Of a stretch of 46,488 nt of DNA, positions 29,377 through 46,488 are shown in pieces. This stretch comes from Candidatus Schekmanbacteria bacterium (GTDB lineage: Bacteria > CSSED10-310 > JACPHN01). The notes under the pieces are model-generated. The model saw nothing but the letters and a program-made list of their open reading frames with translations. It was not told the DNA's origin and searched no databases. The stretch covers positions 1 through 46,488 of the forward strand of contig JACPHN010000051.1 of assembly GCA_016188575.1 (NCBI GenBank), given 5' to 3'. Numbering within the stretch: position 1 is the stretch's first letter; each line of letters opens with the position of its first letter. Made by a program: the position numbers and the translations under genes.

Positions 29377-30765
29377 CTACTGCCGAAAACTGTCCGCACT
29401 CAGACCGTGCTTCTTCAACAGCCGGTAGAAGGTGCCGCGGGGAAGCTGAGCCTCCTGCGCGGCCCGCGTCACGTCGCCATTCCACCGGCCGAGAAGTTCC
29501 TCGAGGTAGTTTTGTTCGAAGATGGCGAGGTGCTGCGTACGCAGATCGAAGAAGTTGCCCCGGCGCGCCGCCGGTTGGTCGCCTGACTTCCCGACGACCT
29601 CCTCCGGCAGATCCTCCACCGTCAAGACCTCATTTCGCGTCAAGGCGATGGACCGTTTCATCACGTTTTGCAGCTCGCGGATGTTTCCCGGCCACGAATA
29701 CCGAGTCAAGACCTCCATGACGTCCTGGCTGACTTCCGAAACCGGTTTTTCCATCTCCGACGCGAAGCGCTTCAGAAAGTGATAGACGAGCAGCGGGATA
29801 TCGTCCAGGCGTTCGCGCAGGGAAGGGATCTCGATGCGGACGACATTGATGCGGTAGTAGAGGTCTTCGCGAAACGCCTTGTTCTTGATCTGGTTGAGCA
29901 GGTCACGGTTGGTGGCTGCCACCACGCGGACATCGACATCGATCTCCTCCTTGCCACCGACCCGCCGCACTCGACGCTCTTGCAAAACGCGCCGCAGCTT
30001 GGCCTGGAGCCGCAGGGGGAGCTCCCCCACCTCATCGAGAAAGAAGGAGCCGTGGTGGGCAAACTCGATGAGCCCGAGGCTGCGCGAGTGAGCTCCGGTG
30101 AATGCGCCTTTTTCGTGGCCGAAGAGCTCACTTTCCAATAGATGGTCAGGGATCGCTCCGCAGTCCACCGGTACGAATCTGGCCGAGGACCGGCGGCTGC
30201 GCTTGTGGATGCTCCTGGCAACGAGCTCCTTGCCGACGCCGGTCTCGCCGACAATGAGGACGTCCACATCCGTTTCGGCGACGCGGTCGATGGTATCGAA
30301 AATGGCGCGCATCGGCGCACTGTGCGAGACGATTTCGTCGAAGCAGAACGGTCGCTCCAACTGCCGCTGGAGCAGGCGATTCTCCTCGCGGAGCTTCTTC
30401 TCCTGAAGCAGGCGGTGGACGGTCGCCTCGAGCTCCTCGGGAAGGAACGGCTTGGTGATGTAGTCCGAGGCGCCCAGCTTCATGGCCGCGACCGCGGTCT
30501 CGACGGTTGGATAGGCCGTGAGCATCAGCACGATCAGGTTGGGATCGCACTCGCGCGCATGCTTGAGAAGCTCGACGCCGTCGATGTCCGGCATGCGGAT
30601 ATCGGAAATCATGAGGTCGAAAGTTTCTTCGCCCAAGATTTCGGCCGCGCGCCGGCTCCGGCGCTCCGTGACAATCTGCGTCTGCGGAATGTGCCGCAGC
30701 GTGTCAGCGCACACTTCCAGCATCCCAGGCTCGTCATCTACGACCAGTATGCGTCGGGTAACCAT
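29377..30765 (-). CDS. sigma54-dependent response regulator (NtrC family)
   Basis: This 462-residue activator has the classical three parts. The receiver domain (1-120) holds ILVVDDEPGM, the phospho-acceptor Asp in LMISDIRMPDIDG, and LMLTAYPTVE with KPF. The AAA+ domain (about 140-370) has Walker A VGETGVGKELVARSIHKRS, the sigma54-contact loop GAFTGAHSRS, Walker B SFFLDEVGELP, and the R-finger region EDLYYRINVVRIEIPSLRERL. A Fis-type helix-turn-helix lies at the C-terminus (RAAQEAQLPRGTFYRLLKKHG). It should activate RNA polymerase with sigma54 when phosphorylated. Its cognate kinase is 17 bp upstream in the same operon. Targets are not known; the nir/nor genes or the PHP gene downstream are the obvious candidates. 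Confidence 0.94.
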   Translation of the reverse strand: MVTRRILVVDDEPGMLEVCADTLRHIPQTQIVTERRSRRAAEILGEETFDLMISDIRMPDIDGVELLKHARECDPNLIVLMLTAYPTVETAVAAMKLGASDYITKPFLPEELEATVHRLLQEKKLREENRLLQRQLERPFCFDEIVSHSAPMRAIFDTIDRVAETDVDVLIVGETGVGKELVARSIHKRSRRSSARFVPVDCGAIPDHLLESELFGHEKGAFTGAHSRSLGLIEFAHHGSFFLDEVGELPLRLQAKLRRVLQERRVRRVGGKEEIDVDVRVVAATNRDLLNQIKNKAFREDLYYRINVVRIEIPSLRERLDDIPLLVYHFLKRFASEMEKPVSEVSQDVMEVLTRYSWPGNIRELQNVMKRSIALTRNEVLTVEDLPEEVVGKSGDQPAARRGNFFDLRTQHLAIFEQNYLEELLGRWNGDVTRAAQEAQLPRGTFYRLLKKHGLSADSFRQ

Positions 30766-30782: not shown

Positions 30783-32219
30783 TTATTGCTTGATCTCAAC
30801 TGGAAACCTTATGATGAAAGTCGTCCCCTGTCCATCCTGGCTCTCCAGGTCGATTTCGCCACCCAGGCCGCGGACGAGCGCCAAGCAGATCGACAGCCCG
30901 AGTCCCGTGCCTGCTTGCTCTTTCGTCGTGAAGAATGGCTCAAAGACGCGCCGCTGGAGCTCGGTGGGGATACCGTGCCCGGTATCCGACACGCGGATTG
31001 CAACGGCTGGTCTGCCATTCGCCAGCGTTTCCGCTCCGCCGCTGCTGGATACTGATAGTGTCCCGCCATCGGGCATGGCGTCGATGGCGTTCAGGAGCAA
31101 GTTCAGCAAGATTTGTTCGATGTCGGCTGCGTTGGCTCTGACGGGTGGCAAGGACCGGTCCACATCGAGTGCGACGGTGATGCCGAGCGATTCGGCTTGC
31201 TGGCGAATCAGCAATACAGCGTGGCCGACGGGTGCCTGGAGCTCGATCGGTTCCGGAATCTGGTGTGCCGGCCGCGAGAACGACAGCAGGCCGCGCGCGA
31301 TCTGGGCGACGCGGTCCGCCAGCGCGACGATTTTTTGCACATCCTCGGCAACCTTCTCCGACATCTCAGTGCGGTGATCGGTCAGCAGCAGTCGTCCCTT
31401 CGCGCTGATGACGGCGATCGGGTTGTTTACCTCGTGGGCGACGTTGCCGGCGAGCTCTCCGACGGCGGCCAGCCTTCCGGCGCGGATCATCTGATCGCGA
31501 GTCCGTCGCTGGCTGGACACATCCATGGCGAGGATGGCGACGTGTGTCGCGGCTCCGGTCTCGTCGCAGATGGGCGCCGCGGTCAACTGTACGGCGCGAT
31601 GCTCGGGACCGGAGCGGCTGGGCAAGTCGACCTCCAGGGTGCTCGAGCAACGCGTCCTGAAGGTGTCCAAGGCGAGCGACCAGGCGCGCTGCCGAGCGCT
31701 GGTCACCTCGTCGAGGTGCGCCGCCGCGGGGGAACTGCCAAGAAGCTCGTGCCAACGCTCATTGATGACATGTGCAGTGCCGGTAGGGTCGACTATGAGC
31801 AAGCCGAGCCCGGCGGTGCGCAGCGCCTTGTCGATCAATTCTCGTTCCGCAACGGCACGCGCCGCCGTCGATCGCCCGTCCAGATGAGGGCTGCCGTCGC
31901 ATTCCGGCGGCGCTCCCGTCGCTACCTGGCGATTCACCTCGCCAATGGCGCCGGAATACGCGACCAGAAAATTCTGCGCCCTGCCGCCGTCATCGACGCC
32001 GCGCACGGACTGCGCCCTCGCCAGGCGTGAGGCGCCCCAGACAGCGCCCCCCGCGACCAGCAGGACACCCCCCGCTCCCAGGGCGTAGGGCAAGAAACCT
32101 GCCATGACCCGGTCATCGGCGGCTACCGAACCAGCTACCAGGATCAAGAATGCCGCCAGTAGGGCAATCCAAAAAAGCCGGAGCGTTGCCACCGGCTTGC
32201 TGCGAGAATCCACTCCCAT
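30783..32219 (-). CDS. membrane-bound sensor histidine kinase (NtrB-like, PAS-containing)
   Basis: This 478-residue kinase has two close N-terminal helices (about 13-33 and 42-64) with almost no periplasmic loop, so it probably senses within the membrane or cytoplasm. A PAS domain (about 125-250) has LLIVDPTGTAHVINERWHEL. The HisKA domain has the phospho-acceptor in ELAGNVAHEVNNPIAVI. The ATPase domain has NLLLNAIDAMPDGG (N box), VRVSDTGHGIP-like G1 (read AIRVSDTGHGIPTELQ), and FFTTKEQAGTGLGLSICLAL (F and G2 boxes). The domain order matches NtrB-type kinases paired with sigma54 regulators. The start ATG at 32219 follows GGAG at a suitable distance. An FNR-like box lies 24 bp upstream. Confidence 0.93.
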   Translation of the reverse strand: MGVDSRSKPVATLRLFWIALLAAFLILVAGSVAADDRVMAGFLPYALGAGGVLLVAGGAVWGASRLARAQSVRGVDDGGRAQNFLVAYSGAIGEVNRQVATGAPPECDGSPHLDGRSTAARAVAERELIDKALRTAGLGLLIVDPTGTAHVINERWHELLGSSPAAAHLDEVTSARQRAWSLALDTFRTRCSSTLEVDLPSRSGPEHRAVQLTAAPICDETGAATHVAILAMDVSSQRRTRDQMIRAGRLAAVGELAGNVAHEVNNPIAVISAKGRLLLTDHRTEMSEKVAEDVQKIVALADRVAQIARGLLSFSRPAHQIPEPIELQAPVGHAVLLIRQQAESLGITVALDVDRSLPPVRANAADIEQILLNLLLNAIDAMPDGGTLSVSSSGGAETLANGRPAVAIRVSDTGHGIPTELQRRVFEPFFTTKEQAGTGLGLSICLALVRGLGGEIDLESQDGQGTTFIIRFPVEIKQ

Positions 32220-32411: not shown

Positions 32412-33950
32412 CTAATGACTTGTTCCCGCGGAGCGGGTGATCTTGTTGTACACGTTGTACTTTCCCGACGGCTTGCGCGCCGGGATGCGCTTCACCTCTT
32501 CGAGCGTCACCGCATCGAAGACCACAATTGCGCCATCGTCCTCCCAGATGCTGAGCAGCGCGAAACGCCCATCGCGCGTGAACTCGACGTGAGCTGCAGT
32601 CTTGCCCGGCGCGGGCCGCAGCGTCTTGACAATTTCCAGCGTTTCCTTGTCGATTACGTGGACCGCATCCCGGTTTGGCCCGAAGAATACGTCTACCCAT
32701 GCATATCGCGTATTCTCGTGACTCCGCATGAAAAATCCCGGTCCGAGCGTCTCGATTCGCCTGACGACCTGCCAAGACTGCATGTCAATCACGCTGACAA
32801 CACCTTCTCCAAGGTTGGGCGTGGCAAGCACGGTACCTCCGGCCCGCTCCCACGTTATTCCTGAAGCCAGATGCGGCATGCCCGGCAATTCCAGGCGCGC
32901 CACTACCGACCCCGTATCAAGGTCGAGCACACGCCCTCTCTCGCCGTCCCGCGCTGCACCAATCAAATAACGATAGGACTGATCAAAGAAAAAGTCATCC
33001 AGGTAGGTTTCCGTTGCAATCGTACGCACCCCAACCCCGGCGGCGGGCGAGGTCCACGTGGTGCCGACCAGTTTGGCGGCGTCAGTGTCTACGGCCACTT
33101 CCCAGACTTCGCGGAGGTCCTTGACGGCGGCCACAAAGGTGTGGCGAGGCGGCGCCGCATACACTGCCGAGACCCTCGATGTCTTTCCGTCCTTGCCGGC
33201 AACCTCCAGAACCGCGCGGGCCCGGAGCGTCGCCGCGTCCAGTACGACCAGAGAATGCGGCAGGTAGTTTCCAACCAGCACCGTGCGCCCGTCACCCGAG
33301 ACGGCGAGATTTCGCGTGTTGATTCCGGCGCGGATCTCACAGCACATCTGGAGCGTATAGAGGTCAAGCTTGGAAACCCAACCGTCGCGCGAGGCGAAGT
33401 AGACGAAGCGGCCATCCGGAGAAAACTTCGGTCCGCCGTGGAGCGCGAAGCGAGTGGGGATCCGCGCAACAGGCTCGAGCTTGTCCCCGTCGAGCACCAT
33501 GGCGTGGTGGTCACCAAGCTCGACGACGACGAAGAGGTTCAGTGGGTCGGCGGTATGGACCGGCCGTGCGCCGGGGTCCGCCACAGCGCTGAGAACCGCG
33601 TGGGTCCGCTGAATCTCATCCATGCCCCAGCGTGGAACGGTGGCAAGCGGCGTGTAGATGAGATCGACCAGGCTGCGAATCCGGTCGGCTGAAAGCTGCT
33701 GTGCAAATCCCGCCATCTGCGAGGATGGCCGGCCGTTCGCGATAGTCCTGGTGGCCTCAGCCTTGTCCAGGCGGCCCAAGTTCTCCGGCAAGAGCGCCGG
33801 TCCGGTTCCGCCCAGGCGATCGGCGCCATGGCAGCTTGCGCACAAGTTGGCAAAATCGGTGCTGGCCGCAGGGGTCGAGGGCGCCGGCACGGCTTCGCTC
33901 GCTGCCGACCGGGCGGGAGCGCATGACCACAACATGGCCGCGGCGAGCAT
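32412..33950 (-). CDS. nirN: NirN-like cytochrome c / heme d1-binding propeller (dihydro-heme d1 dehydrogenase)
   Basis: NirN oxidises dihydro-heme d1 to heme d1 in the periplasm, the last step before insertion into nitrite reductase NirS. From the ATG at 33950 it has 512 residues, close to Pseudomonas NirN. A signal region (MLAAAMLWSCAPARSAASEA) is followed by a class I c-type heme domain with NLCASCHGADRLGG (heme site) and a methionine-bearing SSQMAGFAQQL. An eight-bladed d1-type propeller follows (about 125-512; FALHGGPKFSPDGRFVYFAS). It ends PSGKYNVYNKITRSAGTSH, which I associate with NirN and not with NirS (which ends FNVYNTQHDVY). A NirS role cannot be fully excluded. The open frame runs upstream through a MITE-like element, and a GTG inside that element's end (34004) is an alternative start. 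Confidence 0.78.
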   Translation of the reverse strand: MLAAAMLWSCAPARSAASEAVPAPSTPAASTDFANLCASCHGADRLGGTGPALLPENLGRLDKAEATRTIANGRPSSQMAGFAQQLSADRIRSLVDLIYTPLATVPRWGMDEIQRTHAVLSAVADPGARPVHTADPLNLFVVVELGDHHAMVLDGDKLEPVARIPTRFALHGGPKFSPDGRFVYFASRDGWVSKLDLYTLQMCCEIRAGINTRNLAVSGDGRTVLVGNYLPHSLVVLDAATLRARAVLEVAGKDGKTSRVSAVYAAPPRHTFVAAVKDLREVWEVAVDTDAAKLVGTTWTSPAAGVGVRTIATETYLDDFFFDQSYRYLIGAARDGERGRVLDLDTGSVVARLELPGMPHLASGITWERAGGTVLATPNLGEGVVSVIDMQSWQVVRRIETLGPGFFMRSHENTRYAWVDVFFGPNRDAVHVIDKETLEIVKTLRPAPGKTAAHVEFTRDGRFALLSIWEDDGAIVVFDAVTLEEVKRIPARKPSGKYNVYNKITRSAGTSH

Positions 33951-33995
33951 TCCGAAAAGTCGTCGCGCGCGCCGGCGGCAGCCCTGCGGGCGGCC

Positions 33996-34131
33996 TGGAT
34001 CCACCGCCTGTTCTCCGTCGGCGTAACTGTGTCTGCCTCCGTTCTTCCCCCCACAAGCGGGGGGAGGTGCGGTGGGGGGTCTTCGTAATGCGCTTTCCGC
34101 ACACTTCCTGGTCGCACAGCCGGTGGATTCA
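33996..34131 (-). repeat. 136-bp inverted-repeat (MITE-like) element, copy B
   Basis: This copy is inverted relative to the one at 16362-16497. One end reads TGGATCCACCGCCTGTT (33996-34012) and the other ACAGCCGGTGGATTCA (34116-34131), each with small changes from the perfect 17-bp ends of copy A. Shared interior blocks include GTGCGGAAAGCGCATTACG and GAAGACCCCCCACC on the minus strand. The centre folds back (CCCCCC next to GGGGGG). It lies between the siroheme decarboxylase gene and nirN, 46 bp from the nirN ATG. Confidence 0.7.
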
Positions 34132-34147
34132 GGGCGGCATGCCGCGC

Positions 34148-35176
34148 TCACTCCACTGCACCTGCGGGTAGCGGAGCTCGTTGCTCCCACCAACGCTCAA
34201 GCTCCGGAAGAAAATACCTGAGCCTGCACTTCTTGAGCTCCTTGCGACTGAACAGAATGGCGTAATCGCTGATGCCGACCAGCGCTGACAGCTCCCGAGC
34301 CCGCGCCGACACGGCATCCTCGGTCTGTCCGTGAAGCATCGTGTACAGCGTATAGGGAAAGCCATCAATGGCGCTGCGCGCGTAACAGTGGCTGACCTGG
34401 GGTGCTTGCGCCAGCGCTGTGCCGGTGGCGTCGCGCTCGTCGTCGCCGACCCTCCAGACGACCATGCCATTTGCCTGGATGCCCATACGCCGATGTCGAA
34501 ACGTGGCGACATACCGACGGATGGCACAGCCGTGATGCCGCCGGGCAACCGTGAGAAGCTCGTCTTCGGTCATGCCAGCGTCGCGGGCGAGTGCTGCGAA
34601 CGGTCGCTCGACCAGCGGCAGCGGCCGCTGCAGCGCCCTGAAGGCTGCTTGGAGCTCAGAGGTGACGGTGATTGGGCGGATCTCTTCGAGCGCCCGGTAC
34701 GACGTGTTGTTCTCCAGGCTGTCCAGTGCGAAGCGCACGCCGATCTTGTATGTGGCGGTGCGGCGCAAGGGAAAAAAGCCACTGACATTGGCTTCGCGCG
34801 CGAGCAGCCGAAGTGATGCTTCGATTCCCATTGGCGCCGGCACCGCGAGGGTAAACCACAAATTGTAGCGATGGTCGCGCAGGTAGTTGTGCGTCACGGT
34901 CGGGTGGCCGTTCACAATCCGGACGACTTCTTCCAGGCGTGCCGGCGATACCGTTCCGGCTACCAGCGCGGACTCGTAACCCAGGGCCTCGCCCTCGAGC
35001 ACCGCGGAGATCTCCCGAAGCTGCTCGCCGCGAAACCACTCCACGAGCTGCCCGAGGACTTGCTGCGCGGGTACCCCTAGATCGCGAGCAATTGCGTCAT
35101 ACGGCCGCGGGACAAAGGGAACGTCGTCCTGTACGCGGGCAGCGAGCGCTGATATCCACGATTCGTCCGGCATCAT
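34148..35176 (-). CDS. nirDL: siroheme decarboxylase, fused two-domain form (NirDL type)
   Basis: This enzyme decarboxylates siroheme to didecarboxysiroheme, the first committed step toward heme d1. It is 342 residues from the ATG at 35176, preferred because GGGAG lies nine bases upstream; a GTG at 35221 would overlap nirF. It is made of two AsnC/Lrp-like halves. Half one (about 1-165) has the active-site stretch VTHNYLRDHRYNLWFTL. Half two (about 170-342) has the partner motif VSHCYARSAIDGFPYTLYTMLHG. In Pseudomonas these are separate small proteins (NirD, L, G, H); here they are one chain. A winged-helix part is still recognisable at each N-terminus, but the role is catalytic and not regulatory. 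It begins 17 bp after the nirF stop. Confidence 0.9.
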   Translation of the reverse strand: MMPDESWISALAARVQDDVPFVPRPYDAIARDLGVPAQQVLGQLVEWFRGEQLREISAVLEGEALGYESALVAGTVSPARLEEVVRIVNGHPTVTHNYLRDHRYNLWFTLAVPAPMGIEASLRLLAREANVSGFFPLRRTATYKIGVRFALDSLENNTSYRALEEIRPITVTSELQAAFRALQRPLPLVERPFAALARDAGMTEDELLTVARRHHGCAIRRYVATFRHRRMGIQANGMVVWRVGDDERDATGTALAQAPQVSHCYARSAIDGFPYTLYTMLHGQTEDAVSARARELSALVGISDYAILFSRKELKKCRLRYFLPELERWWEQRAPLPAGAVE

Positions 35177-35193
35177 GGTTTCCATCTCCCGCG

Positions 35194-36387
35194 CTACAGT
35201 CCAGTCTTGAAGGCGCGCCACACGCCGAAGATCCCCGATGGCGAACGCAGCTCCTCGCTATCGACAATCTCGTAGCGATTGGCATCGACGACGACGAGCT
35301 TGTTGTCGCGGTTGGCCGAGACCAGCACATGCGCGCCACGAGGCGTGAAATCCATGTGGTAGATGCGTCCGCCGATCTCCAGCGTGCGCGTGACGGCGAG
35401 CGTCTCAGTGTCGACTACCTGAACGAACGAATCGTCGGCATCGCCCGAGAAGCTAACCCAGACTTCGCGTTCAGAGGGAGCCCGCACGGCGTAGACCGGG
35501 TGCCCGCGCAGCGGAACACTGCGCGCGAATGTCCACGTCGCGCTGTCCACGACGGCCAGACGCTTTTCACCAACCAGAGGCACGAAAACCTGCCCGCGAG
35601 CCACCGCCCATGACGCCATGTGCGGAAGCTTCACCGGCGTCGTGCGCACAAATGTTTCCGCGGGGTCGCGGAGCGAAACCGCGCGCACTCCCGCGTCCAG
35701 TCGCGCCAAATCCAACACCGAGACGCTGTCGGTACCCACGTGCCCGACGAGGTAATAGCGTCCGTCGGGCGTGATCATCGCGTCGTAAGGCATTGCTGCA
35801 AGCGTGGGGATACGCCGCTCGATTTCGGGTCCGGCTGCTCCCAGAGCGACAACCCAGATCTCCGCGGCTTCGATCGACACACAGACGAACGTGTTACCCA
35901 GCCCATCGACGACTCCGGTGACGCGCGCATCCATCTCCTGGTCACCGCGTTTAAAAGACGCGGGGAAGTGCTTGATCGTCTGCAGTGTTGCGACATCCAG
36001 AATCGACAGGCCGCCGGGGACATACTCGGCGACCGCGAGAAATCGGCCGTCCTGGCTGATCGCGTTGTCGATCGAGTTTTTCGATGTGAAAACCGTTCCA
36101 GCGACGGACAAGCTCTCCAGATCGATTCTCGTCAACTGACCACTGCGGGTTGCCAGAAAGCCGTAGCGCAGGTCCGGGGCAAAGGTCATGGTCGCGTGAT
36201 GGAGGTCGCCGAGGCCCGTGATGCGCTCCGGCAGCAGGCGCCGTTCCGCGAGATCGTATACAGCGAGGCTCGCGGATGACCGCTCGACGATGAAGACGCG
36301 TGCGCCGACCCCGCCGGCCGCAGCGCGCGCAGCGAGCCCGGAAACGCACGCGGATGCGCACACCAAGAGCAACAGAAGGCGCTTCAT
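35194..36387 (-). CDS. nirF: NirF, periplasmic heme d1 biosynthesis protein
   Basis: NirF acts in the periplasm in heme d1 maturation, before NirN. The ATG at 36387 overlaps the nirJ stop by four bases (ATGA), which fixes the start. The 397-residue product has a signal peptide (MKRLLLLLVCASACVSGLA) and then one d1-type beta-propeller without any CxxCH, as expected of NirF. Repeated blades include RVFIVERSSASLAVYDL, LSILDVATLQTIKHFP, YDAMITPDGRYYLVGHVG, PHMASWAVARGQVFVPLVGE and HVLVSANRDNKLVVVD. No N-terminal lipobox is obvious at the very end of the signal (ASAC is possible). It lies between nirJ and nirDL on one transcript. Confidence 0.92.
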   Translation of the reverse strand: MKRLLLLLVCASACVSGLAARAAAGGVGARVFIVERSSASLAVYDLAERRLLPERITGLGDLHHATMTFAPDLRYGFLATRSGQLTRIDLESLSVAGTVFTSKNSIDNAISQDGRFLAVAEYVPGGLSILDVATLQTIKHFPASFKRGDQEMDARVTGVVDGLGNTFVCVSIEAAEIWVVALGAAGPEIERRIPTLAAMPYDAMITPDGRYYLVGHVGTDSVSVLDLARLDAGVRAVSLRDPAETFVRTTPVKLPHMASWAVARGQVFVPLVGEKRLAVVDSATWTFARSVPLRGHPVYAVRAPSEREVWVSFSGDADDSFVQVVDTETLAVTRTLEIGGRIYHMDFTPRGAHVLVSANRDNKLVVVDANRYEIVDSEELRSPSGIFGVWRAFKTGL

Positions 36388-37607
36388 ACGCGTGCCTCGG
36401 TGACCGCCTGGTGGCTCGTGGCCGCATCGCAACCACTCCCCGCTCCCAGCTCCTCCGCGAGGAGCAGACAGGCGGGATCCTCGGCCCATACATCGCCGAA
36501 ATGCGCCAGCGCCCGTTCCCGGTGCGACCCCCGGCATAGCCCAACATGGGAGCAGGCGGCGCATCGCCCCCCCAGCCGCGCTTCCCGAGTGCGCAGCTCT
36601 TCGCGAAACGGGTGTTCGAGGATGTGCGCGAGTGGTTCTTGGCGGACCGACCCGAGCACGCCGCGATGCCAGAACTGATCGGGAAGCACGTGCCCTTGAT
36701 GGTCGATGGCCAGCAGCTTCTCGCCGGCCGAGTTTCCCCCTCGGCGCTCCAGCAACTCGCGAACCGCGCTGACACCTTCCGGAGGGAAGCGCGCGGCGAG
36801 CCAGCCGAGGAGAAGAACGCCGTCGGAATCGTTGGATCCGGTGACGACACGCGTCGGGCTGCCCTCCGCCGCGAGCACGGCGGCGCGCGCGAAGAGCTCG
36901 CGCAGGGACTCGCGAGCCTCCACACGAGTGAGATCCTCGGCCGCCATGGCGTGTCCCCTTCCCGCGTACACGAGATGGGAGACGTAGAAGCGATCGGCGC
37001 GATCGGCGCAGGCCATGGCGAGGACGTCGGGGAGCTGTTTGACATTTCGGCGCGTGATCGTCATGCGCACACCCGTCCGCAGGCCAGCCGCCCGCGCCAG
37101 GCGAAGACCGGCGAGAGCGCGGTCCGTGGCCGCAGCCAGTCCGCGGTATGCGTCGTTGAACGCGGGCACGCCGTCGATGCTGATGCCGACGTAGGAAAAG
37201 CCAACATCTGCCAGCTTGCCGGCGACTTCGGCGTCGATGAGCACACCGTTAGACGACAGGCACAGAGTCAGGCCCAGGGCGCGGGCGCGTGACGCGATCG
37301 CGAACAGATCCGCCCGCAAGAGAGGCTCGCCGCCGCTGAGGATGAGCGTATCGGCTCCCACCTCGGCGAGCTGTTCGGTCAGCGCGAGCGCTTCTGCGGT
37401 GGTCAGGTCCTTGGGTGAGGGTGCGGCGGTCGCCGCAGCGTAGCAATGGGGACAGGACATGTTGCAGTGGCGACAGACGTTCCACACAACTACGGCGACA
37501 CCAGTACCCCGGCGCCGGTCAAAGCGTAGCCGTGCACTGGCCCCTACGTCCGCCGCGCCGCGGCCGGCGTTTTTGGCCACGTCGACGAGGTCGCTGACCA
37601 TCAGCAT
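36384..37607 (-). CDS. nirJ: NirJ radical SAM heme d1 synthase
   Basis: NirJ is the cytoplasmic radical S-adenosylmethionine enzyme that removes the propionate chains of didecarboxysiroheme on the way to heme d1. The 407-residue protein has the 4Fe-4S/SAM motif CNMSCPHC (about residue 49, CxxxCxxC) and the SAM-binding GGEPLLR. GISIDGVPAFNDAYRG and TGVRMTITRRN fit the barrel. The C-terminal cysteine cluster CAACSHVGLCRGSHRERA, followed by WAEDPACLLL, is the second cluster region typical of NirJ. The start ATG at 37607 (or 37601) has no strong ribosome binding site. Its 3' end overlaps nirF. The gene 53 bp upstream encodes a c-type cytochrome. Confidence 0.92.
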   Translation of the reverse strand: MLMVSDLVDVAKNAGRGAADVGASARLRFDRRRGTGVAVVVWNVCRHCNMSCPHCYAAATAAPSPKDLTTAEALALTEQLAEVGADTLILSGGEPLLRADLFAIASRARALGLTLCLSSNGVLIDAEVAGKLADVGFSYVGISIDGVPAFNDAYRGLAAATDRALAGLRLARAAGLRTGVRMTITRRNVKQLPDVLAMACADRADRFYVSHLVYAGRGHAMAAEDLTRVEARESLRELFARAAVLAAEGSPTRVVTGSNDSDGVLLLGWLAARFPPEGVSAVRELLERRGGNSAGEKLLAIDHQGHVLPDQFWHRGVLGSVRQEPLAHILEHPFREELRTREARLGGRCAACSHVGLCRGSHRERALAHFGDVWAEDPACLLLAEELGAGSGCDAATSHQAVTEARV

Positions 37608-37659: not shown

Positions 37660-38160
37660 TCACCGACTTGTCGCCTTCCTGGTCGCCTCAGGATCGGCTG
37701 CCGCTGTTGGCTTCAAGGCGGCCTCGCCCGGCGCGGGTTGGCTCGCCGGGAGCGTTGCGGCGCCGCCGGACATTGCGTCGATGTAGGCCAGCACGTCCTC
37801 GATCTGCTGATCCGTGAGATTGGGGTTGGGCATGGGTACGTTCTTCCACTCAATCATGAGCTTGCGGCCCGTGGCATCAGACTGCCCCATGCCGATGGGG
37901 TCGCGCAGCCAGCGCCGCAGCCAGTCTCGCTCCCGGCGCCCGCTGACAGCTTTCAGGTCAGGACCGATGCGGTCGCCCTGCCCAACAGTGTGGCATGCCA
38001 TGCAGATGCGCTCGAAAGTTACTTTGCCGGCGTCGACGTCCGGCCGTCCGGGGACTGACGCCGGCGCCGCCGTTCCCGAATCACCGCCTGCCTGGCACGC
38101 CAGGAGCGCGGTCAGGCACAAGAAGCCCATTGCGACAGAGAGAAAACGGCAACACATCAT
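37660..38160 (-). CDS. c-type cytochrome lipoprotein
   Basis: This 166-residue protein starts at the ATG at 38160. The signal sequence LSVAMGFLCLTALLAC ends in a good lipobox (LLAC), so the mature protein should be lipid-anchored on the periplasmic side. One c-type heme site is present (RICMACHTVGQ) with a likely axial methionine in WKNVPMPNPNLTDQQIEDVL, giving a class I monoheme cytochrome. The tail is Ala/Pro-rich. In this position it may donate electrons to nitrite reductase or to the NO reductase, or serve NirN, like NirC/NirM in other denitrifiers. Which of these cannot be decided from sequence. Confidence 0.85.
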   Translation of the reverse strand: MMCCRFLSVAMGFLCLTALLACQAGGDSGTAAPASVPGRPDVDAGKVTFERICMACHTVGQGDRIGPDLKAVSGRRERDWLRRWLRDPIGMGQSDATGRKLMIEWKNVPMPNPNLTDQQIEDVLAYIDAMSGGAATLPASQPAPGEAALKPTAAADPEATRKATSR

Positions 38161-38283
38161 CGTGCTCGCTTCTTGGTGGGAATCCCGGCCAGCAAGGTGG
38201 GCCACGCCTCCCGGCCGTCGCGTCGCGTTAGCGTCGCCGCCGGCGGCCGCCTGGGGGCGAGGAGGCACCGCAACCGCCGGATA

Positions 38284-39492
38284 TTAGATGTTTATTTCGG
38301 CGCGCAACCAGATCACCTGCTCGTCGAGCATGGCCACGCCTGACTTGTTGCTGCTGTCCGCGCTGTAGCTCGCGAGCTTCAATATTGACGAGAAGCGATC
38401 GGACCACTTCTTCACGACCTGAAACTCTCCTTCGCTCCCGTAATCATCGTCGCCGGATTCTTGTCCATAAAGATGATATTGAGCCAGGAACTTGAATCCT
38501 TTCACGCCACCAGAGAAGCGCAGGTAGAGGTCTTCCAGCCCCAGCTTGAGGCCTCCGCCGTTGGTGGCGAGGAATTCATCGGACCAGCCGTTGAACTTGT
38601 GCGCCGTGCTGAAAAGCGTGTCGAAGGGCCGTTGGTCACCATCCTGGCCACTGATGTTGCTGTAGCCGGCGCCAGCCAAGAAGCCCGAGAACCTCCCACC
38701 GGCGAACACATTCAGCATGCTGCCTCCATCAAAATCCGCATCGGCGAGCTTGCGCTGCAGAGCATAGTCGGCAGCGTACTCGAAGTACGTCGCACCACCT
38801 CCCGCGGCAAAGCCGAGAGTCATCTTATCGCGGTCGGTCGGCTGGTCGCCAGGGGCGTCGAGAAAGTACCCGAATCCCGAAATCTTGGCATAGGGGGAGC
38901 CGGAGTAGTGGACGTGAAGCACCCCGAGGTAGTCCAGGTCTTGCTCCGTATTGGCGATGGTCTTGACTTGCCACAAGTAGCCAACGGTAAGGGTGAGCTC
39001 CTTCACCGACTTGTTGGCGAAAGTGAGCCCGTCGAAGGACTGCGCGTGCTGCCGCCACCCGACGTCGCCGATGAGGCGATGATCATCGAGCGTGAATTCC
39101 TGGCGGCCCAGTCGCAGCACGCTGCCGGGGATGGCCGCGGTCTCCAGGTATGCCTGATGAATCTGGACGCCCTCGACGTCGGCGACGGTGTCGTACCTGG
39201 CGTCTTCCGGCGCGTAGCGGTCAATGAGGGCAGCTACCGATTGTGCCTGGAGAAAGAAGTTGGATTTCGCGAAATCCCCTGTTCGATACCCGAGCCGGGT
39301 GCGCAGGGTCAGCGATAGCGCCGCGTCCTTGCCGTTATCCTTCAGATCGGATCGCTCCAGCGCCAGCCGCAAGTCTAGCGACGGCTGGCCGGACGCGAGC
39401 GCATCCAGAAGGGAGCTTGCGAACGCCTGAGAAGGCAACCATCCCAATGCCACCAGCACCGTGAGGAGAACAACTCTGCTGCTCATGACCAC
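38284..39492 (-). CDS. outer-membrane porin of the alginate-export/OprD-like type
   Basis: This 402-residue beta-barrel precursor starts at the GTG at 39492, preferred because AAGGAG lies six bases upstream; an ATG at 39486 is close. The signal peptide is VVLLTVLVALGWLPSQAFAS. The mature protein has the alternating pattern of membrane strands and a family-like block LRLGRQEFTLDDHRLIGDVG, then QHAQSFDGLTFANKSVKELTLT, seen in alginate_export porins. The chain ends with a strand reading EQVIWLRAEINI, without a terminal aromatic residue. It is the first gene of the leftward nir arm and shares its upstream region with the rightward NO-reductase genes. A role in nitrite or other anion entry is possible but only inferred. 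Confidence 0.8.
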   Translation of the reverse strand: MVMSSRVVLLTVLVALGWLPSQAFASSLLDALASGQPSLDLRLALERSDLKDNGKDAALSLTLRTRLGYRTGDFAKSNFFLQAQSVAALIDRYAPEDARYDTVADVEGVQIHQAYLETAAIPGSVLRLGRQEFTLDDHRLIGDVGWRQHAQSFDGLTFANKSVKELTLTVGYLWQVKTIANTEQDLDYLGVLHVHYSGSPYAKISGFGYFLDAPGDQPTDRDKMTLGFAAGGGATYFEYAADYALQRKLADADFDGGSMLNVFAGGRFSGFLAGAGYSNISGQDGDQRPFDTLFSTAHKFNGWSDEFLATNGGGLKLGLEDLYLRFSGGVKGFKFLAQYHLYGQESGDDDYGSEGEFQVVKKWSDRFSSILKLASYSADSSNKSGVAMLDEQVIWLRAEINI

Positions 39493-39744: not shown

Positions 39745-39909
39745 ATGACTGAACAAAAAGAAAGGCCCGGCGAGGAAACCCCACTCGGACAACGACTTCT
39801 CGATCGGCCTTTTGTCCTGCTGGTTGCTGGGGTGCTCGTGATGCTCGCGTTTTACACGCTGTGGGGAATTTTCGAGCTCGTAACGCTGCCGACAGCAACC
39901 TTGCCCTGA
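39745..39909 (+). CDS. small single-pass membrane protein in the NO reductase operon
   Basis: This 54-residue protein starts at the ATG at 39745, with a strong ribosome binding site AAGGAGGG five bases upstream. It has a charged N-terminus (MTEQKERPGEETPLGQ) and one helix, PFVLLVAGVLVMLAFYTLWG, and ends ELVTLPTATLP. It lies 19 bp before the CuA subunit gene, so it is likely a small accessory subunit of the complex. Small single-helix subunits are common in heme-copper oxidases. I do not recognise its sequence family. Confidence 0.8.
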   Translation: MTEQKERPGEETPLGQRLLDRPFVLLVAGVLVMLAFYTLWGIFELVTLPTATLP

Positions 39910-39928
39910 CGACTGCGGAGGAGAAAAG

Positions 39929-40513
39929 ATGCATTCGGCAATCGTGTCCCCGAAGGGGGTCTGGTGGAAACCCGCCGGAAAACAAGAGAAGCTCTGGGTA
40001 ACGATCGCATTCGTGTGGTGCATGATCCTGTTTGCCATGATGCCATTTTGGCATTTCAAAGGTGGGCAGAATCCGTCAGGAATGCGGTCGCGCGTTGACC
40101 CAAAGGATTTCGCCGCCAGAGCGCAAAGATTCGTCGAGGATTACAAGGTCGGGGACGAAAACGGCATTCCGGTGGTGGCGCCCCCGGCTGGTAGCGACCT
40201 CTACCTGGTCGCTCGGATGTGGGCGTGGTCGCCCATTCTGAAGCTCAAGAAGGGCGCGACATACACACTTCACCTGTCGGCTCTCGATGTCAATCATGGG
40301 TTCAGCCTCTACCCGATCAACATCAACTTCCAGGTTGTTCCCGGGTATGACTACGCGCTGACCGTAACCCCGAACGATGTCGGCGAATACAAGATCATTT
40401 GTAACGAATTCTGCGGCATCGGGCACCACTTGATGGTGGGCAAGGCGATCGTCGAAGAAGGCGAAAGTACCGCGTCGGCAGCGGCGGAGGTAAGCGAGGT
40501 AAACAATGAGTAA
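39929..40513 (+). CDS. heme-copper oxidoreductase subunit II with CuA site (NorY-like)
   Basis: This 194-residue protein is membrane-anchored by one N-terminal helix (WVTIAFVWCMILFAMMPFW) with a periplasmic cupredoxin domain. The CuA ligands are all present: the His in LSALDVNHGFSLYP and the cluster CNEFCGIGHHLMVG (two Cys, His, Met). It therefore accepts electrons from a cytochrome c or similar donor and passes them to subunit I. The start ATG at 39929 has GGAGGAG five bases upstream. Its stop overlaps subunit I by eight bases. The link to the NO reductase class comes from subunit I and the SenC gene; the sequence alone would also fit an oxidase subunit II. Confidence 0.88.
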   Translation: MHSAIVSPKGVWWKPAGKQEKLWVTIAFVWCMILFAMMPFWHFKGGQNPSGMRSRVDPKDFAARAQRFVEDYKVGDENGIPVVAPPAGSDLYLVARMWAWSPILKLKKGATYTLHLSALDVNHGFSLYPININFQVVPGYDYALTVTPNDVGEYKIICNEFCGIGHHLMVGKAIVEEGESTASAAAEVSEVNNE

Positions 40514-42239
40514 CGCAATGGCGGACACGCTTCAGGGCTGGGGGCGGAGGTGCCAGGTCACCGGCCTGAAGGTGCACAGCGAGGCCGAGAAGCTGATCAA
40601 GGTAAACGCGGTCGTCGCGGTCGTCGCCTTCCTGGTGGGCGTCATCGCCGCGATTGGACTGGTGCTGACGCGCTGGCAGGCGGTCCATCTGCTGCCAGCG
40701 GACTGGTATTATCGGCTCATGACCGTCCACGGCATGAACATGCTGATCTTCTTCATCCTCTTCTTTGAAATGGCCGTGCTCTACTTCGCCGGTCCCGTGC
40801 TCCTGAACTGCCGGGTGCCCGCACCGAAAGTCGGGTGGCTCGCCTTCGGTCTCATGGTTCTCGGCGCCGTCATGGTCGACGTGGTCATTTTCGCCGGCAA
40901 GGCGGACGTGCTGTTCACCTCTTACGTGCCGCTGCGCGCGCATCCGCTTTTTTACTTGGGAGTCATCCTGTTTGCCGTGGGTGCAATCCTGGTGACGTGC
41001 CTGTTCTTCGCGTCACTGGTAGTGGCCAAGCGCGAGCAGACCTATGAGGGGTCGGTGCCGCTGGTGACGTTTGGCGCGCTGACCGCGGCGATCATTGCGG
41101 CGATTACCTTGCTTCACGGCGCGGCGATCTACATCCCGACCTTTCTGTGGTCGCTCAATATCATTCCCATCGATCCTGAGCTCTATCGCGTGGTCTGGTG
41201 GGGGCTCGGCCACTCCTCGCAGCAGATCAATGTTGCCGCCATGGTTTCGGTCTGGTATCTGCTCGGTGGGCTCACCGTCGGCGCCGTGGTGCTGAACGAG
41301 AAAATCAGTCGCAGCGCCTTTTCGCTATACGTCCTGTTCATCTCCATGGCTTCTGCGCACCATCTGTTGGTTGACCCTGGCCTTGGCCCGGCATGGAAGG
41401 TCTGGAACACGAGCTATGCGATGTATCTGGCGGTGCTCGCGTCGATGATCCACGGCTTCACGGTGCCGGCAGGCATCGAGATGGGGCAGCGCCTGCGCGG
41501 GCTCGTCAAGGGCAGGTTCGAATGGCTGCGCAAGGCGCCGTGGGGCGATCCCGGGTTTTCCGGCATGTTCCTGTCACTGGTCATCTTTGGGTTTTTCGGC
41601 GGCATTACGGGAGTGACCTCGGGAACGGAGCAGATCAACATCATTGCGCACAACACGCTGCGGATTCCCGGACACTTTCACGTCACCGTCGTCGGCGGCA
41701 CCGCGTTGGCGTTCATGGCTGTCACGTACTACGTGCTCCCGCTCATCTTTCAGCGCAAGGTTGCCTTGTGGGGCCTCGCCAAGATCCAGCCGTATCTTTT
41801 CGGCGTTGGCATCGTCATCATGGCGATGTCGATGACCTTCGCGGGTTCCTTCGGCGTCCCGCGGCGGCACTGGGACATCACCTTTGCGGGCGCCGCTACC
41901 AGCGTCGAATTTCATCCCATGGTCGACATGCTGATGGGCACGATGGCCATCGGCGGCTTGCTGGCCGCAATCGGCGCGCTGGCATATATCGCGATCGCTG
42001 TGCTGTCGGTGTTCTTTGGCCAGAAAGTGGACTGGAGTCGCGTCGGCGACGGCGGAGCGGGGATTCCGCAGGGGGTGGCGAAGCTGCCGAAGCAGGCCCA
42101 CACCGGAGCTGCCGTGGAGCAGGTTCACCAGGCGGGAACGCCCGGCACGATGGTGCTCGTGGGTGTCTTTCTCACCGTGTTCGTGCTCTATTACTTTGTC
42201 AACTGGAAGATGCTGTCCATGGTTTGGAAGATAGGATAG
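40506..42239 (+). CDS. heme-copper superfamily subunit I, predicted nitric oxide reductase (NorS/eNOR-like)
   Basis: This 577-residue protein has about 12 to 14 membrane helices. It keeps the low-spin heme His (MTVHGMNML), the two metal His (SAHHLLVDPG) and the heme His pair (RIPGHFHVTVVGG). In the helix that carries the third CuB ligand it reads WWGLGHSSQQIN, where oxidases have GHPEVY. The His is kept, but the cross-linked Tyr four residues on is Gln. Loss of that Tyr is a hallmark of the NO-reducing branches of this superfamily, though cNOR and qNOR have Glu at this place. With a CuA subunit and a SenC gene the set resembles norSY-senC. It is predicted to reduce NO to N2O at the inner membrane. 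The ATG at 40506 has GAGGT five bases upstream. An oxygen-reducing role is unlikely but not excluded. Confidence 0.8.
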   Translation: MSNAMADTLQGWGRRCQVTGLKVHSEAEKLIKVNAVVAVVAFLVGVIAAIGLVLTRWQAVHLLPADWYYRLMTVHGMNMLIFFILFFEMAVLYFAGPVLLNCRVPAPKVGWLAFGLMVLGAVMVDVVIFAGKADVLFTSYVPLRAHPLFYLGVILFAVGAILVTCLFFASLVVAKREQTYEGSVPLVTFGALTAAIIAAITLLHGAAIYIPTFLWSLNIIPIDPELYRVVWWGLGHSSQQINVAAMVSVWYLLGGLTVGAVVLNEKISRSAFSLYVLFISMASAHHLLVDPGLGPAWKVWNTSYAMYLAVLASMIHGFTVPAGIEMGQRLRGLVKGRFEWLRKAPWGDPGFSGMFLSLVIFGFFGGITGVTSGTEQINIIAHNTLRIPGHFHVTVVGGTALAFMAVTYYVLPLIFQRKVALWGLAKIQPYLFGVGIVIMAMSMTFAGSFGVPRRHWDITFAGAATSVEFHPMVDMLMGTMAIGGLLAAIGALAYIAIAVLSVFFGQKVDWSRVGDGGAGIPQGVAKLPKQAHTGAAVEQVHQAGTPGTMVLVGVFLTVFVLYYFVNWKMLSMVWKIG

Positions 42240-42247
42240 GATTGCTC

Positions 42248-43165
42248 ATGATCGGCGAATCACGAGAAAGCTATGTGCCTCTGGGGCTACTCGGAGCGTG
42301 GATAGGGATCACGGTATCGTGGTGGATACTGGCGCTCGCGCCCTTGCCACCGGCGGCGCCGGAGTGGCTCTTGCGCACCCGCACGGTGTGTTTTGGCACG
42401 CTGAGCAATGGGCTGCCCGATGCTTATGGCTGGATCGTGCTCCTCGTCGGTCCGGCGGGGATGCTTGGAGCGCTCGTCGCGATCTGGTGGCGCGAGCTTC
42501 GAGCTAATTTTCGCAGCGTTTCGGTTACCGCGGCAGGGCGAGCCGTCCTCGCCCTGTTCGTGCTCGTGCCCGCCGCCGCGTCGGCGTGGCTTGGGCCGCG
42601 CGTTGCCGCCGGGCTGCGCGTGCCGGCAACGTTCTTGGAGGTGTCGCCGGCGCCCGAGACGCTGCCGGCGGACTACCCCATGACCGACAAGGAAGGGATC
42701 GATTTCTCGCTCGTCGACCAACACGGTGCGGAGGTTGGTCCCCGGAAATTCTCGGGTAGGCTGCTGTTCCTCACCTTCGCGTTTGCTCACTGCCAGTCAA
42801 TGTGTCCGCTCATCGTGCACACGACCAAGCGGGCGATAGCGGAGATCCCGGAGCTCAACCCTGTCGCGCTCATCGTCACGTTGGACCCGTGGCGCGACAC
42901 CCCGAGCTCCTTGCCGACGATGGCAGGCAGCTTTGGGCTCAGCGCCGACAGTCCCATACACGTGCTGTCGGGAGCTGTCGACTCGGTGGAGAAGGTGCTC
43001 GATACCTACGAAGTTCCGCGGGACCGCGACGACAAGAGTGGTGAAATCGTGCACCCGGCGCTCGTATACGTGATTGCTCCTTCAGGCCGCATCGCTTACA
43101 CGCTGAATAACGCCTCCGGCGAATGGCTCGCCGAGGCGGGGCGACGAGCCGTGCGGCTGCAGTAG
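42248..43165 (+). CDS. SCO1/SenC-type copper chaperone with N-terminal membrane segments
   Basis: This 305-residue protein begins with about three membrane helices (residues 10-30, 60-80 and 95-115), then a periplasmic thioredoxin-like Sco domain (about 140-305). The copper-binding cysteines are in AHCQSMCPLIV (CxxxC), and the distal His ligand is in SGEIVHPALVYVI. Such proteins load copper into the CuA site of the subunit II encoded upstream. The ATG at 42248 is nine bases after the subunit I stop and follows TAGGA. The extra N-terminal helices are unusual for Sco, which usually has one, and hint at a fusion with a small membrane subunit. It is the last gene of the rightward operon. Confidence 0.85.
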   Translation: MIGESRESYVPLGLLGAWIGITVSWWILALAPLPPAAPEWLLRTRTVCFGTLSNGLPDAYGWIVLLVGPAGMLGALVAIWWRELRANFRSVSVTAAGRAVLALFVLVPAAASAWLGPRVAAGLRVPATFLEVSPAPETLPADYPMTDKEGIDFSLVDQHGAEVGPRKFSGRLLFLTFAFAHCQSMCPLIVHTTKRAIAEIPELNPVALIVTLDPWRDTPSSLPTMAGSFGLSADSPIHVLSGAVDSVEKVLDTYEVPRDRDDKSGEIVHPALVYVIAPSGRIAYTLNNASGEWLAEAGRRAVRLQ

Positions 43166-43415: not shown

Positions 43416-44519
43416 TCAGGGTTGCCCGGGCGCGAGCTTCCAAGGGTTCTCGCCGCTTACCCAGTCCTGGAACCGGGCCGGGCGCTGCTGATCCGGAAGG
43501 CAGAACCAGTGCTCGATGCGCTTGCCGGGAAAGTCGCGGCGCTGGCGCTCGCACACCAGCTCCTCAATGCCACACGGCAGTCCGCCCTTGGCGTAGGGTT
43601 GCTCCCTGGCCAGGAGCGCCTCGTGCCAATCGGGAGGGTATGAGCCAAAGGCTTCCTCGAAGGCCTCGGCGACCACATAGGAAACGTGCGGAAGATTGGC
43701 CTCCCCGCGGCAATACGGGGTCGCCAGCACCGACTGCCAGGCGTAACGGGCAACTCGTTGCGCGGACGTCAGGTCTCCGAGCTCTCGGTAGGCACGGGAG
43801 AGAATCGCCGCGTCGAAGTAGGAGTACGGCGTCGCGGCGATCAGCTCCTCCCCGGCTTCCACCACGCGGCGCAGCCACATCGGCGCATCCGGCGCACCCA
43901 TCCGATTTGCCTTCCACATGGCAGCGTGGACCCGTCGCGAAAGCCGCTCCAAGTCCGCCTCTTCCGTTCCCGCGGGCTCGATCCACAAGTCCACGATCGG
44001 CCCCTCGTGGGAGTACGGATCGCGGGCGGCGACCTCCTTGGGAAGCGCGGCGCGGAGCCGGTAGTAGCCCGGCTCGAGATTGCTCGAGTCGAGCGACCAG
44101 GAAAGAGATTGCGGGGATGGCGCCGGAGCGCGCTGCAGAATGAGCGTCTTGGTATGGCCTTTCTCGACGGACCACGTGACTTGCCCCGCGTACGAGCCCG
44201 GGATATCGGCCGGCGACACCTCCTTGCGACCCAGAGCTTCCCAGGTACCCCTGATGTCGATGCGGTCCCCCGCGATGAAGCTGACCGGCGGCTTGGGACC
44301 GGCGATCACGAGGCGGGGTGGCAGATATCCGCACGTAAAAGTATTGCCTGCACTCGGCATCTCTTCCATCAGGTCGCACACCTGCCAGTCGTCGATACAG
44401 AACCGAGCGTCACCAACAGAGAGCCAGGCGGGCTCCTCCTGGGCGCCGGTCCGGGAAGCCGTAAGCAGGACGGAGGCAAGACAGGCAAGAACGATACGCT
44501 TACTCACGACTCTCTCCAT
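43416..44519 (-). CDS. secreted protein of unknown function
   Basis: This 367-residue protein starts at the ATG at 44519, overlapping the end of the upstream metalloprotease gene by 20 bp, which suggests translational coupling. An export signal (SKRIVLACLASVLLTASRTGA) is clear. The first part of the mature chain is beta-rich, with several cysteines (ARFCIDDWQVCDLMEE and TFTCGYLPPRLVIAG). The second part is helical and repeat-like (LIAATPYSYFDAAILSRAYR, LGDLTSAQRVARYAWQSV), resembling TPR packing. I recognise no family. Co-location suggests a partner of the protease. The 250-bp gap beyond its stop, toward senC, holds GC-rich fold-backs but no gene. Confidence 0.75.
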   Translation of the reverse strand: MERVVSKRIVLACLASVLLTASRTGAQEEPAWLSVGDARFCIDDWQVCDLMEEMPSAGNTFTCGYLPPRLVIAGPKPPVSFIAGDRIDIRGTWEALGRKEVSPADIPGSYAGQVTWSVEKGHTKTLILQRAPAPSPQSLSWSLDSSNLEPGYYRLRAALPKEVAARDPYSHEGPIVDLWIEPAGTEEADLERLSRRVHAAMWKANRMGAPDAPMWLRRVVEAGEELIAATPYSYFDAAILSRAYRELGDLTSAQRVARYAWQSVLATPYCRGEANLPHVSYVVAEAFEEAFGSYPPDWHEALLAREQPYAKGGLPCGIEELVCERQRRDFPGKRIEHWFCLPDQQRPARFQDWVSGENPWKLAPGQP

Positions 44520-46488
44520 GCAATCTGACCTGCGCCCTGTCCTCGGCATCCGCCGGCAGGCCTTCGCCGAGAATCGCTTGCCAGCGCGGATGCGTTAGGC
44601 TCGAGGTGCGGGGCAGGAAGTTGGTCACCATCGCCGACTCCCGATCGGCCTCCGGGCATGGATCATCGACGGGGCAAGCAGGCGAGCCCGGCTGCCGGTA
44701 GTGGGCGGCGCCGATCGCGTGCCCCACTTCATGGGCCACGGTGAAGGTCATCGCTTCGATGTCGTGGGGCTCAGACAGCGCGGTCTCGCTGCTGGTCGGT
44801 GGGCTGATGCAGGTGATCGCGTACAGGTGGATCTGGCTGCGGATCACGGTGTTCGGGTTGCGCGGTCCACCGGCAGAAGGCCAGAGGGTGCTGCCGATGC
44901 GGGGCAACGTCGGCGGGCATCCCGCTTCCCGGGCGTAGCTGTTCGTGAACCAGACGTACACCCCTCCCTGCGGTGCTCTCCCGAGCGCTGTCTCCCACCG
45001 CGGGTTGACGAGGATCCTTGGCTTCTCGTGAAAGAGGAACTCCCTGTTGTCCTCCCCCCACAGCTCGCGCACCGCCAGTCCCCAGCGCGGAGAAAGCAGC
45101 GCAATAGCCTCGGAAGCCAGCTCGGGAGCGACGTCGTACCTGCGACCGTCCGCACTGCCCAGGAACGCGGCCACGAAGAGGTCCTTACGTTCCGGAGAGG
45201 TGCGCACGAACCGCTTGTACGCCACGAACCCGCGAAATTCCTCGTACGCCGTGAAGCCGTCGCCCACGAGCCCTGCGGCGGGGTCGCCCGCAGCCGGCGG
45301 GTTCCCATCCAGGTCCTCACGCATGTCAGGGCGATCGGCGATCGGCGAAGTCACCCCATCCGCTGTCCATCCGGCATCGGGCAACCCACTCCGGTCGTCG
45401 TCGCGCGGAAGCTGGAGCAGCTCCTTGGCTGTCCCGCCCATCCCGGCGGGGAGCCCCACGTAGCTCTTCTCGCCCTCGACGTCCACCTGTACCGCGAAGT
45501 GCCCGTGCGCCCCGAAGTCGGTCGTGCTCGCCTCGATTACCGCGGTCTCCAGCGTCTCTCGGCTTTCCTCCGAGGTCGACCCCCTCGCGTAGTGCATCGG
45601 CACTCTGAAGCCGGCGTCCCGGAAGACCGGCGCCACGGAGCCGACTTCGAGCTCGGGGTAGGCGAAGGCGCCGGTCTCCGCGAGTTTGACCTCCATCGGC
45701 GCTCCGAGCCGTTGGTAGGTCACCCGGTAGGCTACGTCGTCCTCGTTGCCCGGAGCATCCGCGCGGTAGTTGGTGGCGATGCCCGGAAAGGCGCTGCTGG
45801 CGGTCGCGAAAGTGAGCGTGGCGCGGTCGGCAGCGTATTCCGGGACCGCCTCGAGGCGATAGCTCAGGGTGGCGGCGGGCTTGCCGGGGTCGGCGACGTC
45901 CCCCAGCGGCACGAAGCTGCGCGGCGTGTCCTGCTTGTAGCGGAACCGCCACCGCGTCTCCCCGTCGGTTTCGTTCCGCGCTGGCGGTCCACCGCCGCCA
46001 GCGAGGTCGCCGTCTCCGTCCCAGGGGATCCTTCCCGGGCCAGCGCGCCGGCCGCCGCTTTTGGGCTTCACCGGAATCTCGAAAAGCGTCCCGCCCATCG
46101 CGAGCCAGGAGGGGATGCGAAGGCCGCCCAGATACTCCTCTTCGCCCTCCAGGCAGCCGTCGATCAGATCGCTGCCGCAACCGTACCGCTCGGCGATCGT
46201 CGCCCCCGTCGCCCCACCGCCGTCGATCAACACGTATTCGACGTCGATCGCTTCCGACCGCGAGCGGTGCAGGCCGACCCTGGCCGCGAGCGGCGCCACC
46301 GGGCTGGACAGCACCTGCCAGCGCTGGTTGAAGTGATACCAGCCGTCTCCCTGCTCCTCTTCCAGGCATTCGCCGACCGAGCTCGTCAGGGACACCGAAA
46401 CGGGGATCGGATTCTGGTCGTACCACACCCACTCCTCGGGCTCGGCGTGGTGGCGGCAGTAGGGAAGCGCCGAATTCAGGCAGTCGTA
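44500..46488 (-). CDS. secreted metzincin-type zinc metalloprotease, N-terminus beyond right edge
   Basis: The frame stays open to the right edge, so the start and any signal peptide are outside; at least 662 residues are visible. Near the C-terminus lies VAHEVGHAIGAAHYRQPG, a complete HExxHxxGxxH metzincin zinc site, with a later AMVTNF that could be the Met-turn. The upstream 500 residues are mainly beta-structured with calcium-like acidic runs (DGDGDLAGGGG, LPRDDDRSGLPDAGW) and a Cys pair. These look like interaction or substrate-binding domains. I cannot assign a precise family (snapalysin, pappalysin and similar are possible). An extracellular or surface location is inferred. It is followed by an overlapping secreted-protein gene. 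Confidence 0.8.
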   Translation of the reverse strand, partial: YDCLNSALPYCRHHAEPEEWVWYDQNPIPVSVSLTSSVGECLEEEQGDGWYHFNQRWQVLSSPVAPLAARVGLHRSRSEAIDVEYVLIDGGGATGATIAERYGCGSDLIDGCLEGEEEYLGGLRIPSWLAMGGTLFEIPVKPKSGGRRAGPGRIPWDGDGDLAGGGGPPARNETDGETRWRFRYKQDTPRSFVPLGDVADPGKPAATLSYRLEAVPEYAADRATLTFATASSAFPGIATNYRADAPGNEDDVAYRVTYQRLGAPMEVKLAETGAFAYPELEVGSVAPVFRDAGFRVPMHYARGSTSEESRETLETAVIEASTTDFGAHGHFAVQVDVEGEKSYVGLPAGMGGTAKELLQLPRDDDRSGLPDAGWTADGVTSPIADRPDMREDLDGNPPAAGDPAAGLVGDGFTAYEEFRGFVAYKRFVRTSPERKDLFVAAFLGSADGRRYDVAPELASEAIALLSPRWGLAVRELWGEDNREFLFHEKPRILVNPRWETALGRAPQGGVYVWFTNSYAREAGCPPTLPRIGSTLWPSAGGPRNPNTVIRSQIHLYAITCISPPTSSETALSEPHDIEAMTFTVAHEVGHAIGAAHYRQPGSPACPVDDPCPEADRESAMVTNFLPRTSSLTHPRWQAILGEGLPADAEDRAQVRLHGESRE

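Follow-up and report, generated by a model that had tools for sequence, protein, structure and literature searches.

The window, i.e., the whole stretch of 46,488 nucleotides analyzed here, carries on its plus strand (39745-43165) four genes in the order small one-helix protein, CuA subunit II, subunit I, and SCO/SenC. The first gene (39745-39909), which was read from the sequence and is absent from the first-pass annotation, encodes a protein of 54 amino acids with one transmembrane segment. In 74 of 83 family loci, a homologue of 40-70 residues sharing the pattern D..FLLL..G......Y..WG..E is encoded ahead of subunit II, and the position and size are comparable to those of B-family small subunits; the protein is probably the small subunit of the complex. 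Subunit II (39929-40513) is a membrane-anchored CuA cupredoxin of 194 amino acids that matches CoxB (7e-13) and chain B of PDB entry 1ehk (6e-16), in which residue 15 aligns with its E20; its CuA ligands C158, E160, C162, H123, H166, and M169 are conserved. The start of the subunit I gene (40506-42239) overlaps the stop of subunit II by 8 nt, and the product, which begins with ATG and comprises 577 amino acids, is a catalytic heme-copper subunit (Pfam COX1, 2e-61) with the HSSQQ motif of the eNOR type. The SCO/SenC copper-insertion protein (42248-43165; Pfam SCO1-SenC, 1e-21) has an N-terminal membrane part and a CQSMC motif; the CuA subunit and SenC that the first-pass annotation had noted alongside subunit I are both in place. 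Downstream of SCO, two proteins lacking a Pfam match are encoded on the minus strand (43416-44549 and 44500-46488), the latter bearing a zinc-protease-like HEVGHAIGAAH motif.

The divergent heme d1 cluster and NirS

The operon is divergent from a heme d1 cluster on the minus strand, and a scan of the divergent region for promoters and terminators found none. The gene facing the operon encodes an outer-membrane porin-like protein (38284-39492; Alginate_exp, Pfam 6e-10), which is followed by a monoheme cytochrome c with a CMACH motif (37660-38268; Pfam Cytochrom_C, 1e-10), a possible electron carrier. The minus strand then encodes a NirJ-like radical SAM protein of heme d1 synthesis (36384-37607; TIGR04051, 1e-111, under the strict cut-off), a NirF-like d1 propeller without a cytochrome c domain (35194-36564; Cytochrom_D1, 3e-62), a fused siroheme decarboxylase of the AhbAB or NirDLGH-like type (34148-35221; NF040707 and NF040708, both over the cut-off), and a NirN-like protein combining cytochrome c with a d1 propeller (32412-34193; Cytochrom_D1, 2e-117). 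A PAS histidine kinase (30783-32219, minus strand; HisKA/HATPase_c) and a sigma-54 response regulator (29377-30765, minus strand; Response_reg and Sigma54_activat) adjoin the cluster, and a role in it is suggested for both by their position.

The 593-residue cd1 protein of the window was considered as NirS and rejected, as it groups with the NirN-like proteins of loci L066, L074, L081, L089, and L092 and not with the NirS encoded on contig C195. The latter (L177:7874-9859) is the true NirS of the genome; an Rrf2 regulator lies upstream of its gene, and two cytochrome c domains, each indicated by a CAGCH motif, precede its d1 domain. What may be the same two-cytochrome-c architecture has been called unique to Chloroflexi and co-occurs with eNOR in SURF MAG 42 (PMC8756737). 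Genes for cd1-type nitrite reductase or d1 proteins are also located near the family gene in L004, L055, L060, L066, L071, L074, L081, L082, L089, and L092.

Active site, relatives, and family assignment

Helix VI of subunit I reads WWGLGH236-S-S-Q239-Q240-I-N242, in which Gln240 occupies the site of the cross-linked Tyr of oxygen reductases. Q239, Q240, and N242 are invariant in all 85 aligned relatives, while Tyr is found at position 240 in each of the four B-family oxidases compared. The HSSQQ reading of the first-pass annotation, with Gln at the Tyr/Glu position, was thus exact; its contrast with the oxidases holds for the replacement of Tyr, although the apt oxidase motif is the B-family HPxVY rather than HPEVY. 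The six heme and copper histidines, which had been described as retained, are all present, i.e., His75 on helix II, His236 on helix VI, the pair His285-His286 on helix VII, and His390 and His392 on helix X. Five of these ligands are found in 85/85 aligned sequences and H392 in 82/85; in L003 and L004 (Thermus plasmids) and L082 (Aquificota), helix X has GHFK in place of GHFH, such that Lys replaces one low-spin heme ligand. Glu88 on helix II is invariant among the aligned relatives and missing from the four B-family oxidases.

A scan of ~85,000 prokaryote species genomes found at least 279 relatives, 80 of which were kept (54-75% identity). They belong to Gemmatimonadota, Acidobacteriota, Myxococcota, Spirochaetota, Balneolota, Bacteroidota, Calditrichota, Nitrospirota, Verrucomicrobiota, Pseudomonadota, and Aquificota. 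Relatives on plasmids include those of Thermomicrobium roseum, Defluviimonas, and Thermus thermophilus. Since Gln240 is found in 85/85 relatives from more than 10 phyla, it is a family trait and is not due to chance or to an error of sequencing. The distribution is patchy, as the gene is absent from all seven same-phylum genomes among 60 relatives of the window's genome.

This genome also encodes a divergent COX1-like paralogue of eNOR (hhalign E 2e-40; L178:7943-9505; G000, contig C245), which recurs elsewhere (e.g., L056:6778-8244, L069:6831-8243, and L061:6927-8342). It keeps the histidines of helices II, VI, and X (LVxHV, GGGHxxQ, and PAHYH) and is missing the CuB His pair of helix VII; in ten loci its gene immediately precedes that of eNOR subunit II, and eight further loci have it elsewhere within 9 kb. 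L151 and L152, from the eNOR-bearing genomes G195 and G074, are COX1-like proteins that keep the Tyr and have altered ligands (YH in helix VII and PGYFH in helix X).

The phylogeny was computed with IQ-TREE (LG+C20+F+G4 PMSF) from 65 rows, among which there is no bNOR, gNOR, cNOR, or qNOR sequence; L161, L003, and L097 were flagged as long branches. All 40 Gln-type rows form one clade (100/100), which is sister to the B-family O2 reductases (98/94) rather than inside them, the latter being the placement that the first-pass annotation had named as speaking against its reading. The window's protein falls in a ten-row clade (99/93) with those of Bdellovibrionota, Rokuibacteriota, Acidobacteriota, Myxococcota, Kiritimatiellota, and Spirochaetota. 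The sNOR of Ruegeria is one of eight Asn-type rows, which form a clade of their own (100/100).

The eNOR family (Hemp and Gennis 2008; Murali et al. 2024) is defined by Gln at the active site, a cupredoxin subunit II encoded just ahead of subunit I, and a single predicted proton channel; it occurs in Archaea, Chloroflexi, and Proteobacteria, and its tree includes homologues from Thermus and Rhodothermus (PMC8756737). PMC11388526 reports a biochemical characterization of eNOR, citing Murali et al. 2024. In the window, the six heme/CuB histidines, Gln in place of Tyr, and a CuA subunit II immediately upstream are all present, and we assign the complex to the eNOR family of heme-copper NO reductases with a probability of roughly 0.9. 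The non-canonical NO reductase class proposed in the first-pass annotation accordingly already has a name, to which Gln240, the CuA subunit, and the tree all point, and by which the complex is predicted to reduce NO to N2O. The name is drawn from the diagnostic residue, the subunit make-up, and the named lineages, with no named R. marinus or Natronomonas sequence as an anchor; the Thermus and Chloroflexota proteins of the Gln-type clade fit the lineages given as eNOR in PMC8756737. Haloarchaeal plasmid homologues were tried as further anchors and discarded, as all have Tyr. The window's complex shares with the family the Gln, the six histidines, the upstream CuA subunit II, a B-family-like fold, several K-type channel residues, and the linkage to nitrite reduction; no diagnostic difference was found. 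It comes from a rare, poorly sampled phylum. It is an ordinary, well-formed addition to a known but rarely annotated family and not a new kind of enzyme.

Other NO reductase classes differ at the same position. Where cNOR and qNOR have Glu and gNOR has Asp, the window has Gln240, and a CuA subunit II takes the place of the heme c subunit or quinol fusion of the former two. The bNOR or CuANOR of Bacillus has a similar operon with a CuA subunit, SenC, and a small membrane peptide (PMC3475470), yet Asn at the Tyr position; no named bNOR is in the tree. An Asn at this site is likewise given for sNOR (Table A4, PMC8756737), in which Ruegeria appears under its former name Silicibacter, and was seen here in Ruegeria and seven relatives. 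This residue and the separate Asn-type clade make an sNOR (NorSY-SenC) identity of the complex extremely improbable. The idea would come from the order subunit II, subunit I, SenC, which is also that of norSY-senC-orf1 (PMC4940428) and of the Ruegeria pomeroyi plasmid locus (L160), where CuA subunit II and SenC genes likewise lie beside subunit I. An oxygen-reducing role has somewhat better grounds and is still improbable; the complex would be a high-affinity, low-O2 B-family reductase whose cross-linked Tyr has been lost, or an enzyme reducing both O2 and NO that mainly serves O2. The sister relationship to the B-family oxygen reductases is in line with such a role, as are the CuA subunit, SCO, and the CyoE heme o synthase gene found near the family gene in many relatives, all as in oxidases, and a similar case has been argued for sNOR in Nitrosomonas (PMC6967387). 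Against it stand the loss of Tyr in 85/85 sequences, the linkage to nitrite-reductase and heme d1 genes, and a genome in which aa3 and cbb3 oxidases are encoded and no other NO reductase was found. The linkage itself is imperfect for the eNOR assignment, in that the operon lies beside heme d1 synthesis genes, yet nirS is on another contig. O2 reduction may be a side activity of the window's eNOR.

Fold, proton path, and proposed physiology

The AlphaFold2 model of subunit I (pLDDT 84.7, with lower confidence around residues 231-240) superposes on the B-family oxidase 7deg (Z 38.4, 2.2 A over 479 residues) and on the T. thermophilus ba3 enzyme 1ehk (Z 37.6, 2.4 A over 474 residues), although A-family chains match it as well as B-family oxidases do. 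The ba3 K-channel positions compared are Glu15 of subunit II and Ser309, Tyr248, Thr315, Thr312, Tyr244, and the active-site Tyr237 of subunit I. Four of these positions are kept and three are changed. Glu15 corresponds to E20 (84/84), Ser309 to S313 and Tyr248 to Y251 (each 85/85), and Thr315 to T319 (77 T, 7 S, and 1 A among 85), while Thr312 is replaced by H316 (His in 85/85), Tyr244 by V247 (82 V and 3 I of 85), and Tyr237 by Gln240. The likeness to the ba3 O2 reductase thus extends to the fold, the CuA subunit, and the Glu15/Ser309/Tyr248/Thr315 positions, whereas the window's protein carries the three substitutions and adds the invariant Glu88. Proton-channel retention, as suggested in the first-pass annotation, finds partial support, in that four residues are kept and three replaced.

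A proton path through subunit I is plausible from these residues. Most ba3 K-channel positions persist, but the changes of Thr312 to His316 and of Tyr244 to Val make energy conservation by NO reduction in this family possible at most. A tentative proposal, to which we give somewhat less than even odds, is that proton translocation is coupled to NO reduction in this family by way of a rewired K-channel, with His316 serving for Thr312. A further reading, which we hold to be less likely than not, is that the complex serves NO detoxification only, without electrogenic proton uptake, the channel residues being relics or the protons arriving from outside. The substitutions at Thr312 and Tyr244, besides that of the active-site Tyr, would agree with such a role; however, retention of the entry Glu of subunit II (84/84), of Ser313 and Tyr251 (85/85), and of Thr/Ser319 (84/85) suggests continued selection on the path.

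For the eNOR of the window, the sequence shows a route by which electrons can enter at the CuA of subunit II and pass via a bis-His low-spin heme to a high-spin heme/CuB site with three His on CuB; Gln stands in place of the Tyr from which O-O cleavage draws an electron and a proton. Two NO molecules would bind at this site to yield N2O and H2O (2 NO + 2 e- + 2 H+), the protons probably coming from the cytoplasm via a modified K-type channel with its entry at Glu20 of subunit II. A membrane-bound cytochrome b that carries two 4Fe-4S motifs and an FlpD domain adjoins eNOR in ~70 loci (e.g., L002:12402-13982 and L019:11419-12900), and the copy in this genome is unlinked to it (C14:1199-2578); this protein may be the electron feeder of eNOR. 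The NO would be supplied by the cell's own NirS (contig C195), for which the divergent cluster would make heme d1, so that the complex would probably carry out the NO-to-N2O step within a chain of partial denitrification.

The clear COX1 proteins of the genome are an aa3-type enzyme, a cbb3 CcoN-CcoO fusion, and the window's eNOR, in addition to the divergent COX1-like protein on C245; no cNOR or qNOR was seen at 93.8% completeness. At the same completeness, TIGR04246 found no NosZ, its matches being to CuA domains only, and PF18764 matched nowhere and hence provided no test; NosZ is likely absent.

If NO reduction by this family were proton-coupled, a step of denitrification would conserve energy, unlike that catalyzed by cNOR, and the channel residues listed above make this question testable. 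With eNOR as the sole NO reductase found, a NirS also encoded, and no NosZ detected, the organism is predicted to be a partial denitrifier that releases N2O, a greenhouse gas, from toxic NO. As eNOR is often misannotated as cytochrome c oxidase (PMC8756737), genomes such as this one would be scored as lacking a NO reductase, and their N2O production would be overlooked.
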